Below, piece by piece: positions 1-3,780 of a stretch of 64,000 bases of DNA. Each line of letters opens with the position of its first letter. The first letter of the stretch is position 1. Both the position numbers and the translations under genes were made by a program. Source of the stretch: Chloroflexota bacterium. GTDB taxonomy: Bacteria; Chloroflexota; Dehalococcoidia; Tepidiformales; Tepidiformaceae. Under the pieces are notes generated by a model. That model worked only from the letters and a program-made list of their open reading frames with translations, was not told where the DNA came from and did not search any database. The stretch spans positions 310,001 through 374,000 of the forward strand of contig JACRBT010000004.1 in assembly GCA_016234445.1 (NCBI GenBank). Direction: 5' to 3'.

Positions 1-394
1 CGAGCCCACCCGCGAGATTGCGTTCGCGGTGGCGGCCGCCGGCTGCCTCTTCCCCGCGGCCGAGGATGAGGTGGTCGCCGAGGTGGAGGCGGTGCGCCGC
101 CCGGGCGAGCGTGGTGCCGCGGACGATCCCGGCGCGCATCCGGGTCAGCGGGCCTTCGCCGGCGTCGGGGAACCAGCGGAAGAGCTGGTCCGCCACGACC
201 ATCCCAAGGATGGCGTCACCGAGGAACTCGAGGCGTTCGTTGGAGATGGCTGCGGCGTCCGTTTCGTTGAGATAAGAGGAGTGGGTCAGGGCTTGCTGGA
301 GGAGGGCGTCCGGGAGCGAGGCGATGCCCAGCCGCTCGATGAGCGCTTCGCGAGTCGCGGGTTCAGCCAGCGGCACGGGACCCCCTGCCAGCAT
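1..394 (-). CDS. rnc: Ribonuclease III, N-terminal part (cut by window edge)
   Basis: Double-strand-specific endoribonuclease that processes rRNA precursors and structured RNAs in the cytoplasm. Only the first 131 residues lie in the window; the gene continues past position 1. The catalytic domain is clear: HSSYLNE at residues 38-44 and the family signature NERLEFLGDA at about 52-61, whose acidic residues bind the metal ions, followed by the GRGEEAAGG turn and RNLAGGL, matching the usual ILADAxEA segment. The dsRNA-binding domain would be outside the window. The ATG at 392-394 is the only start that keeps the usual short leader before the domain; a weak purine stretch precedes it. It is transcribed away from the zinc-finger genes at 478 across an 83-bp gap. 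Confidence 0.9.
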   Translation of the reverse strand, partial: MLAGGPVPLAEPATREALIERLGIASLPDALLQQALTHSSYLNETDAAAISNERLEFLGDAILGMVVADQLFRWFPDAGEGPLTRMRAGIVRGTTLARAAHRLHLGDHLILGRGEEAAGGRHRERNLAGGL

Positions 395-477
395 CGCCCT
401 GTCCGGTCGAGGGACGAAGAAATGCTAAAGTTCCATGATCATATGGACCGGGTTTTGCCGATGTCAAGGATAACGCT

Positions 478-888
478 ATGATCCCGGCAGACCCCCATTT
501 ACCTATGACAACTACGAAAAATTCATGCAGCGTCTGTGGCGAAGGCCTCACCGAGGCCACCTCGGCGATCTGCAACTCCTGCGGCGAGCCCTACCACCTG
601 AACCAGCGCGCCGACATCCCCGGCAAGGACTGCGGCGAGGTCTGGATCGACGAAGGCCACCTCGCCCTCGAGTTCGCCTGCAACACCTGCCTGAACCCCC
701 CGCTGGAACCCGGCGGCCTCGACGACGTGCTCGACATCGAAGAAGCCGCGGCACTGGCGGGCGTGGCCGCGGGTGCCCTCGAAGCGGCGGCCGGGATGGG
801 GGCGCTGCGCCACCGGAAGACCGGGAGCGGAACCTATCTCTTCTCCCGGGGCGACGTGATGGAGTTTCGCGAAGGCGGCAATGCGTGA
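478..888 (+). CDS. PHD/RING-like zinc finger fused to an excisionase/MerR-like HTH
   Basis: I do not recognise a named family. The 136-residue protein has an N-terminal metal-binding module with the order C17-x2-C20-x11-C32-x2-C35-x4-H40-x11-C52-x15-C68-x2-C71, a C4HC3 pattern as in PHD/RING-type cross-brace or treble-clef fingers. Residues about 85-133 (LDIEEAAALAGV ... LRHRKTGSGTYLFSRGDVMEF) look like a helix-turn-helix of the excisionase/MerR type. The ATG at 478 has AAGGA seven bases upstream; an internal ATG at 505 has no such site. The 3' end overlaps the next gene by 8 nt, and that gene carries the same cysteine/histidine pattern. A DNA-binding regulator or adaptor is the simplest inference; substrate and targets are unknown. 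Confidence 0.7.
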   Translation: MIPADPHLPMTTTKNSCSVCGEGLTEATSAICNSCGEPYHLNQRADIPGKDCGEVWIDEGHLALEFACNTCLNPPLEPGGLDDVLDIEEAAALAGVAAGALEAAAGMGALRHRKTGSGTYLFSRGDVMEFREGGNA

Positions 889-1108
889 CCTCTGCTGCGA
901 ATGCGGTGAACCGGCCGGGCGCTCGAGCGTGCTCATCTGTGCCGACTGCGGCGCCTGGTTCCACAGCCCCGACGAGCGCGTCGCCGAAGACGGGCGGAAA
1001 TGCGGTGTCCACGTGATCGGTTTCCGGCAACTGCTCGGGCGCGACGTGGTGCCCCTTTGCCTGCGCTGCGACATGGCCTTCCGCTTGCGCTACGGTATCC
1101 CCTCATGA
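881..1108 (+). CDS. Small C4HC3 zinc-finger protein
   Basis: A 75-residue protein with C5-x2-C8-x11-C20-x2-C23-x4-H28-x12-C41-x18-C60-x2-C63. The first five ligands have the same spacing as in the upstream protein, so the two are probably paralogous domains; this copy is the finger alone, without the helix-turn-helix. The start overlaps the preceding gene by 8 nt and its stop overlaps the next start (ATGA at 1105), so the three genes are very likely co-translated. The role is unknown; a structural or protein-protein adaptor is possible. Confidence 0.7.
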   Translation: MRDLCCECGEPAGRSSVLICADCGAWFHSPDERVAEDGRKCGVHVIGFRQLLGRDVVPLCLRCDMAFRLRYGIPS

Positions 1109-1434
1109 CGACGAAACGGCGCGAACGCAAGACGCCCCGGGCGGCCCACGCCCCTGCGGCGGCCGGGTCGACCCAGCCCCAGGCCGGACTGCCGCCCCTG
1201 CCCCCCTGGCACTGGCGGACGTTTCCCGTCTACTTCGCGGGGGCGCTCGGGTTGTTCCTGGGCGTCTACGCGGGCTACCTGGTCGGTTTCGTCCACGCCG
1301 AGACGGGCAACGGCACGCCCACGCTGGTCCTGTTCGTGACCGCGGCACTGCTGCTGGGATTCGGGCTCTCGCGGCTCACTTCCCGGCTGATGATCACTCG
1401 CCGCTGGGTGAAGCCGCGGCCAAAGCGAAAATAA
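1105..1434 (+). CDS. Small membrane protein, two transmembrane helices
   Basis: Unrecognised 109-residue protein. A basic, Pro/Ala-rich N-terminus (about residues 1-34) is followed by two hydrophobic helices, roughly 38-58 (VYFAGALGLFLGVYAGYLVG) and 69-86 (LVLFVTAALLLGFGLS), then a basic C-terminus ending KPRPKRK, so both ends are predicted cytoplasmic. The ATG at 1105 overlaps the stop of the zinc-finger gene. The longer open frame beginning at 1000 is an overlap artefact. It may anchor or partner the zinc-finger proteins, but that is inference from position only. Confidence 0.65.
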   Translation: MTTKRRERKTPRAAHAPAAAGSTQPQAGLPPLPPWHWRTFPVYFAGALGLFLGVYAGYLVGFVHAETGNGTPTLVLFVTAALLLGFGLSRLTSRLMITRRWVKPRPKRK

Positions 1435-1451: not shown

Positions 1452-2444
1452 ATGGTGTTTTCTGGAGTCGCGCTCACGGGCGCAAGCGTCGAAGAGCACG
1501 TCCGCACGGCCGTCGAAGCCGAACGGGACGGCTACACAACCGGCTGGGTGACCGAAGTTTCCGGGGCCGACGCGGTGACCGTGATGGCCGCCGCCGCGAT
1601 CGCCACGACCACCCTCCGGCTCTCCACCGGAATCGTCTCGACGTACGTGCGGAGCCCCTACCTCGCGGCGATGACCTTCCATTCGCTGGCCGACCTCTCG
1701 GGTGGCCGCGTCGCCGCCGGCTTTGGGACCAGCACCCCCGCGATCGTCACCGGCTGGCACGGGATCCCCTTCGAGCGGCCCCTCGCCACCACGCGTGAAT
1801 TCGTCGACCTCTTCCGGAAGTTGCTTGCGGGCGAGCGCGTGAAAAGCAGCGGCCGCTTCGAGATCCGCGGCGCCTCCCTCCGTGGGCCGGCAAAGGGCGG
1901 CCCGATGCGCGTCTACCTGGCCGCGCTCAACGACGGCATGCTCTCGCTCGCGGGCGAAATCGCCGACGGGGTGATCCTCAACTTCCCGACGCCCGGCTAC
2001 GCGCGTCACGCCCTCGAAGTCCTCGATGCCAGCCTGGCGCGGGCCGGCCGCAGCCGCGAGTCGTTCGAAGTCGTGGCGAACTTCCGCGCCGGGACCGGCG
2101 ACTTCGACGGCCTCGCGAACGTGCTCCGGCGGGAACTGGTGACCTACTTGCTGGCGCCGGTCTACCAGAAGGTGTTCACCGCCGACGGCTTCGGCGACGA
2201 AGTGAAGATCGCCCTCGAACGCTGGGGCGCCGGCGACCGGGCGACGGCCGTTTCCGGCATCTCGGACGCATTCGTGGACGAACACAGCGCTTTCGGGACG
2301 GAGGAGGAGGTCCTGGCGAGGGTCCAGGGCTTCCTCGACCTGGGGATCGACTCCGCGGTGCTCTTCCCGGTGGTGGCCGACGGGCCCGACCGCAAGGCCC
2401 GCGAACTGGCGACGATCCGGGCGCTCGGACCCCGAACTCACTGA
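1452..2444 (+). CDS. LLM-class (luciferase-like) flavin/F420-dependent oxidoreductase
   Basis: 330-residue TIM-barrel oxidoreductase of the luciferase-like monooxygenase superfamily, whose members use FMN or coenzyme F420. Typical features are the repeating EAERDGYTTGWV and MAAAAIATTTLRLSTGIV strands, the DLSGGRVAAGFGTSTPAIV cofactor-binding loop around residues 85-103, and the late DGVILNFPTPGY segment. The pattern resembles F420-dependent reductases more than bacterial luciferase; the substrate cannot be read from sequence. A GGACGAGGAG purine tract precedes the ATG. It lies 17 nt after the small membrane protein and may be in the same transcript, although a link with the zinc-finger genes is not obvious. 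Confidence 0.85.
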   Translation: MVFSGVALTGASVEEHVRTAVEAERDGYTTGWVTEVSGADAVTVMAAAAIATTTLRLSTGIVSTYVRSPYLAAMTFHSLADLSGGRVAAGFGTSTPAIVTGWHGIPFERPLATTREFVDLFRKLLAGERVKSSGRFEIRGASLRGPAKGGPMRVYLAALNDGMLSLAGEIADGVILNFPTPGYARHALEVLDASLARAGRSRESFEVVANFRAGTGDFDGLANVLRRELVTYLLAPVYQKVFTADGFGDEVKIALERWGAGDRATAVSGISDAFVDEHSAFGTEEEVLARVQGFLDLGIDSAVLFPVVADGPDRKARELATIRALGPRTH

Positions 2445-2517: not shown

Positions 2518-2559
2518 ACATCCGGGGCGCCTGGGAGCGTTCCGGGGAGGTTGGAAGCC

Positions 2560-3780
2560 ATGACCGCCGTCGCCACGCCAACGCGCACCCGGGACGAGGA
2601 ACTCCTCGCCCTTTACAGCAACCCTGACACCTGCCCCGCGGACCGGCTGAAGCCCGTCCCCCTCATCGAAGAGCAGGCTTTCGTCGCCTGGCAGCAGGAC
2701 ATCCCCCGCGAATACCTCCGGGTTTCGCCGGAAGAACTCGACCAGCGAATCCGGGCGGCGCGGGCCTACCTCGGCAAGCGGCTGGTCATCCTCGGGCACC
2801 ACTACCAGCGCGACGAGGTCATCCAGTACGCCGACTTCACCGGCGACAGCTTCAAGCTCGCCCGCCACGCCGCCGAACAGAAGGAAGCCGAGTACGTCCT
2901 CTTCTGCGGCGTCCACTTCATGGCCGAATCGGCCGACATCCTCACCCGGCCCGAAGTGCGGGTGATCCTCCCGAACATGGCGGCGGGCTGTTCGATGGCC
3001 GACATGGCCGACCCGGACGACGTTTACGCCGCCTGGGACGAGATCCACGAGGTCCTCGCGGGCAGCGGGTCGAAGGTCATCCCCATCACCTACATGAACA
3101 GCGCCGCCAGCCTGAAGGCGTTCACCGGCGAACACGACGGCCTCGTTTGCACTTCCAGCAACGCCCCCAAGTCCTTCGACTACGCCTTCGAACGGGGCGA
3201 CAAGATCTTCTTCTTCCCCGACCAGCACCTTGGCCGCAACACCGGCTACGCGAAGGGCATCCCCCTCGACCAGATGGTCCTCTGGAACTGGCGCCTCCCC
3301 CACGGGGGCCTCACGCCGGACCAGATCCGCAAGGCGAAGGTCATCCTCTGGGCGGGCCACTGCAGCACCCACCAGCGCTTCAGCGTCGAACAGATCGAAA
3401 AGGCGCGGCGCGACTACCCCGGGATCAACGTCATCGTCCACCCCGAATGCCGCTGGGAAGTCGTCCAGGCCGCCGACGACAGCGGCTCGACCGAGAAGAT
3501 CGTGCGGGTCGTGACCGAAGCGCCGGCCGGCACCGCCTGGGCCGTGGGCACCGAGATCAACCTGGTGAACCGCCTTGCCCACGAGAACCCGGACAAGACG
3601 ATCTTCTGCCTCGACCCCGTGGTCTGCCCCTGCAGCACGATGTACCGGATCCACCCGGCCTATGTCGCCTGGGTACTCGAAGGGCTCGTCGCCGGGCACG
3701 TGATCAACGAAGTCCGCGTGGACGACGAGACCCGGAAGTGGTCGCTCGTCGCGCTCGAACGGATGCTCGCGCTCCCCTAA
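2560..3780 (+). CDS. nadA: Quinolinate synthase
   Basis: Condenses iminoaspartate with dihydroxyacetone phosphate to quinolinate in de novo NAD synthesis; a cytoplasmic [4Fe-4S] enzyme. The 406-residue sequence has GHHYQRDEVIQYADFTGDS near residue 79 and the three cluster-ligand regions GCSMADM (C144), WAGHCSTHQRF (C268) and VVCPCSTMYRIHP (C356 or C358). GGGGAGG at 2544-2550 sits nine bases before the ATG at 2560; an in-frame TTG at 2551 is too close to that site. The upstream region carries a strong palindrome. nadB and nadC are not in the window. The last 4 nt overlap the convergent RidA-like gene. Confidence 0.93.
   Translation: MTAVATPTRTRDEELLALYSNPDTCPADRLKPVPLIEEQAFVAWQQDIPREYLRVSPEELDQRIRAARAYLGKRLVILGHHYQRDEVIQYADFTGDSFKLARHAAEQKEAEYVLFCGVHFMAESADILTRPEVRVILPNMAAGCSMADMADPDDVYAAWDEIHEVLAGSGSKVIPITYMNSAASLKAFTGEHDGLVCTSSNAPKSFDYAFERGDKIFFFPDQHLGRNTGYAKGIPLDQMVLWNWRLPHGGLTPDQIRKAKVILWAGHCSTHQRFSVEQIEKARRDYPGINVIVHPECRWEVVQAADDSGSTEKIVRVVTEAPAGTAWAVGTEINLVNRLAHENPDKTIFCLDPVVCPCSTMYRIHPAYVAWVLEGLVAGHVINEVRVDDETRKWSLVALERMLALP

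Follow-up and report, generated by a model that had tools for sequence, protein, structure and literature searches.

The window, a stretch of 64,000 nucleotides from a bacterium of the family Tepidiformaceae (class Dehalococcoidia, phylum Chloroflexota), contains close to its left end three small overlapping genes, two for predicted zinc-finger proteins and one for a membrane protein. The features of this region are the following:

2–394, minus strand: rnc (RNase III), cut by the window edge, assigned by BLAST to rnc of related loci; head of the divergent rnc-smc-ftsY block
438–482, no strand assigned: rnc/gene 1 divergent promoter region, conserved in the window's family
505–888, plus strand: gene 1 (127 aa), predicted N-terminal binuclear zinc finger and C-terminal winged HTH; relatives start at the equivalent ATG
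526–690, plus strand: finger 1, ligands C8, C11, C23, C26, H31, C43, C59 and C62 (127-aa numbering), invariant in alignments
727–876, plus strand: winged HTH of gene 1, MerR/BldC-type, in the window's family only; wing basic, predicted recognition helix non-basic
881–1108, plus strand: gene 2 (75 aa), finger only; overlaps gene 1 by 8 nt and adjoins gene 1 in relatives
893–1069, plus strand: finger 2, ligands C5, C8, C20, C23, H28, C41, C60 and C63, followed by conserved GRDVVPxCxRCDMAFRL
1105–1434, plus strand: gene 3, two-helix membrane protein, basic at both termini, carrying a WxWRTFPV motif; overlaps gene 2 by 4 nt (ATGA)
1452–2444, plus strand: LLM-class F420-dependent oxidoreductase (PF00296, 4e-59), a neighbour in part of the family
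2551–3780, plus strand: nadA, quinolinate synthase (PF02445, 1.3e-95), a neighbour

The overlaps at 881/888 and 1105/1108 are as the original prediction described them. The start of gene 1, however, had been placed at position 478, probably 9 codons too early: because alignments with relatives begin at ATG 505, and ATG 478 sits inside a -10-like TATGAT, the true start is probably ATG 505 and gene 1 probably spans 505–888. Between rnc and gene 1 (window 438–482), the minus strand carries TTGACA-18-TATGAT (11/12) and the plus strand TTGCCG-16-TATGAT (9/12). This promoter region is strongly conserved, including the block TTGCTAAAG..ATGATCAT. A palindromic operator 5' of gene 1 was also considered and rejected, the promoters of rnc and gene 1 being the better reading of the conserved block.

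The product of gene 3 has two hydrophobic stretches (residues 39–66 and 68–93) between basic ends, in line with the two-helix membrane protein that had been proposed. Its predicted place in one transcription unit with the fingers is supported, and the linkage is strongly conserved. Gene 3 adjoins a finger gene in 36/36 genomes with a good gene 3 match, also where gene 2 is missing, the finger and gene 3 lying at the ends of different contigs in one of them (G002). Within the window's family, gene 1 was present in 35/37 genomes, gene 2 in 23/37 and gene 3 in 35/37.

Read from the sequence, finger 1 has the pattern C-x2-C-x11-C-x2-C-x4-H-x11-C-x15-C-x2-C and finger 2 the pattern C-x2-C-x11-C-x2-C-x4-H-x12-C-x18-C-x2-C. 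The same ligand order and spacing had been claimed for both fingers, which applies to their identical first halves, whereas the second halves differ. A pattern that is not conserved in homologues had been named as the outcome that would speak against the prediction; instead, all eight ligands were invariant in 21 homologues of finger 1 and in 12 homologues of finger 2, and among 31 diverse fingers from the whole class the invariant columns were exactly the eight ligands and no others. Because the ligands are invariant in all three alignments, the pattern is confirmed as real and not due to chance. Fingers 1 and 2 are homologous to each other (hhalign E 2e-6, 42 columns). Placing the second finger on a tree was tried and abandoned, as its 60 columns do not suffice.

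The binuclear RING-like treble clef is defined by four ordered ligand pairs that interleave on two zinc ions (PMC4999995), and the group of binuclear cross-brace treble-clef folds is well established (PMC4999995, PMC4506424). The order and invariance of the eight ligands agree with such a fold, and the interleaving is a prediction from the ligand order. Each finger would hold two predicted zinc sites, C1C2+H5C6 and C3C4+C7C8, forming a cross-brace treble clef; we infer both zinc binding and this pairing. The AlphaFold models were of moderate quality (pLDDT 73, built without zinc), and that of finger 2 had a weak likeness to the PHD fingers of TAF3 and BHC80, with no significant Foldseek match (best E 0.45). 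Weak matches to double zinc ribbon families, together with the second half of the finger that does not align with PHD or Prok-RING_1, might suggest two separate zinc ribbons or a zinc store in place of a cross-brace fold. We regard this as distinctly unlikely, since the lone H...C pair between two CxxC pairs fits a cross-brace and finger 2 matches mainly PHD structures, though weakly.

By profile search, the finger was detected in 128 of the 294 genomes of the window's class, representing 25 taxonomic families. In a sample of the phylum, all matches fell within this class and none was found in the rest of the phylum, except for one marginal match with stop codons; presence beyond the phylum was covered by one close-relative scan. 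A mobile or defence origin was considered and set aside: a plasmid search for the finger family gave no match, and the PADLOC and PHROGs matches were weak and confined to the HTH, with a single marginal PHROG of unknown function as the exception. Finger proteins outside the window's family lack the HTH and carry a short tail after the finger instead. In nine finger proteins from several families a conserved basic C-terminal motif, RRxYRR, follows a variable linker, and this tail possibly binds RNA or membranes. Another conserved C-terminal tail, (E)PPVGxGH, was observed in five finger proteins of three families.

A survey of the neighbours of homologues, as had been suggested with the original prediction, placed the finger gene directly downstream of PolyA_pol/cca (PF01743) at 42 loci, which represent 21 families without counting that of the window. 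The distance from the cca stop to the finger start had a median of -1.5 nt, with 40/42 loci within -30 to +60 and 14 at exactly -4 (ATGA overlap), the finger start being chosen nearest to the cca stop, which favours short distances. On the other side, rnc and smc are divergent in most loci (rnc-smc-ftsY); dinG often follows. In three families cca, finger and gene 3 follow in a row, which is an intermediate arrangement. Second fingers, in tandem or nearby, were also seen behind cca in four families. No description of a finger partner of cca was found in the literature searched.

Gene order of this kind might also be explained if the finger gene were a passenger of unrelated function, held by the stable rnc-cca-dinG order; cca genes that have dinG or rnc close by but no finger also occur, so the order may be finger-independent. 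The very tight and often overlapping spacing to cca across 21 families makes this unlikely, as does the fact that the window's family kept the finger after losing that cca. In many genomes of the class there are two PolyA_pol genes, of which one has a detectable HD domain and the other lacks it (for example L041 and L161 of one genome); CC addition and A addition may be split between the two enzymes.

The window's family has a single PolyA_pol gene, located elsewhere in the genome. The sole family member included in the tree, L148, groups with two finger-less families outside the clade of finger-linked cca genes (100/100), and the other four PolyA_pol genes of the family have the same low similarity to finger-linked cca genes as L148. 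Hence, the window's family lost the finger-linked cca paralogue but retained the finger next to rnc-smc-ftsY; the finger gained a winged HTH and was joined, in the majority of members, by a second finger. Several other lineages lost the finger but kept the finger-linked type of cca. As the finger outlived cca here and was lost where cca remains, it is unlikely to be an obligatory cca subunit, and these losses limit our confidence in the explanation favoured below.

The MerR/excisionase-like HTH that had been predicted after finger 1 was recovered. While Pfam HTH_17 (0.0042) and excisionase (0.0026) matched below their curated cut-offs, Foldseek aligned the model of this domain with the DNA-binding domains of BldC, RacA and MerR at a probability of 1.00, although with a best E of only 0.016. 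The domain thus shares the winged HTH fold of these regulators; it differs from them in being fused behind a finger and in its predicted recognition helix, whose columns are alanine/acid-rich with almost no basic residues. The wing is basic, with a conserved HR[RK]T. Because the predicted recognition helix is nearly free of basic residues, DNA binding by this domain is doubtful. The Foldseek matches include 3ucs, the MerR-like CbpM with a J-domain protein, which shows by analogy that a MerR-like fold can serve protein binding.

Gene 1 might nevertheless encode a transcription regulator, with a winged HTH that binds DNA, perhaps in the rnc/gene 1 intergenic region, fingers that dimerise or sense zinc or redox state, and a membrane protein that holds or releases it. 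While the MerR/BldC-type fold, the conserved basic wing and the strongly conserved divergent promoter region are consistent with such a role, we consider it rather unlikely: the recognition helix is alanine/acid-rich with hardly any basic residues, CbpM has the same fold and binds a J-domain protein, the HTH is missing outside the window's family, and two promoters account for the conserved intergenic block. The original prediction, whose interpretation is supported in part, had suggested a zinc adaptor combined with a DNA-binding regulator at the membrane. Against this last idea, most relatives have no HTH and lie directly behind a cca-type gene, an arrangement that points to RNA metabolism as the origin rather than to a membrane-tethered regulator.

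Binuclear PHD/RING-type fingers are mostly known from eukaryotes, and those of bacteria are usually treated as precursors of the ubiquitin system. A role as a ubiquitin-like E3 ligase, or in another modification system with a RING-like finger, would agree with the RING-like cross-brace ligand order and with a similarity to Prok-RING_1 that is below the cut-off (4e-4). We nonetheless consider a ubiquitin-like system very improbable. No E1, E2 or ubiquitin-like gene was present in the conserved gene order of about 50 finger loci, of which the recurrent neighbours only were identified, or among the annotated neighbours in the window, as the original prediction had already stated for the window, and the only ThiF match of the genome sits on another contig. 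A search with UQ_con (E2) gave no match, but the controls were equally silent and the search is therefore uninformative.

The explanation that we favour, tentatively and with somewhat less than even confidence, is that the fingers are class-specific binuclear treble-clef adaptors, ancestrally made with the CCA-adding enzyme and, in this family, linked to a membrane protein. Genes 1 and 2 would encode small cross-brace fingers, most likely protein- or RNA-binding adaptors and not enzymes. One message would ancestrally have encoded both the finger and a cca-type tRNA nucleotidyltransferase, in many cases with coupled translation, and this shared message hints at an auxiliary function in RNA 3'-end metabolism. 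With the cca paralogue lost from the window's family, the finger would there have acquired the winged HTH, in most cases along with a tandem second finger, and the unit would have been maintained together with the two-helix membrane protein. The two fingers might act jointly as a soluble adaptor that docks on the gene 3 protein, and the winged HTH could be a further protein- or nucleic-acid-binding module. We infer these physical complexes and all functions of the fingers and of gene 3; conserved gene order can persist without physical interaction, which counts against the adaptor reading.

A more specific proposal, and one that we hold to be rather unlikely, is that this PHD-like finger family is the dedicated partner of one of the two tRNA nucleotidyltransferases of these Chloroflexota, in tRNA 3'-end synthesis or quality control, and that the window's family, having lost the enzyme, rewired it into a pair of finger and winged HTH linked to the membrane. 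The finger family is old, as it spans 25 taxonomic families, has its own spacing and is associated with genes of tRNA maturation rather than of ubiquitin. It offers a test of what PHD/RING-type fingers did before or beside ubiquitin, and the finger might be a new factor of CCA addition.

Prokaryotic members of the binuclear treble clefs are reportedly known, the original survey being that of Burroughs in 2011. As far as the literature searched goes, and with the families of that survey outside the comparison, the fingers form a new bacterial branch that extends across the class, is spaced in its own way and keeps a conserved linkage to cca. The original prediction had called them PHD/RING-like; the C4HC3 ligand order supports this, but the spacing is non-canonical, with H-x11/12-C instead of H-x2-C. 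The profile comparison that it had proposed revealed similarity to PHD and Prok-RING_1, but in the N-terminal half only and below curated cut-offs. Filing the fingers as PHD or Prok-RING_1 was rejected on these grounds; as the next ligand after the histidine comes at 11–12 residues and not at two, they are not clean members of either family.

With the PHD finger (PF00628) they share the eight C4-H-C3 ligands in the same order, and the N-terminal half, CxxC-x11-CxxC-x4-H, aligns with the PHD fingers of WSTF, UHRF1 and KDM5. PHD was the commonest Pfam match (14/21 finger members, weak, best 1.4e-4), and, among structures, the finger profile too matched mainly PHD fingers, always weakly. In contrast, the second half of the family's fingers does not align, the bacterial setting is without histone tails, and the two fingers scored 16.2 and 17.1 bits, below the gathering score of 24. 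Prok-RING_1 (PF14446) is likewise bacterial and shares the CxxC...CxxC-x4-H core (hhalign E 1.7e-6 over 27 columns). However, it has H-x2-C-W and no invariant final C-x2-C, the window's fingers differing in both, and finger 1 reached 20.7 bits against a cut-off of 29.1, over the N-terminal half only. A separate Prok-RING_1 protein with H-x2-C-W, above the curated cut-off, is encoded in the same genome (L128, G000:C6:36946-37077).

The remaining likeness is to the operon of the CCA-adding enzyme (tRNA nucleotidyltransferase), as cca lies directly upstream of the finger in the 21 other families; the window's locus differs in that cca is absent, while rnc-smc-ftsY and the eight ligands are kept.
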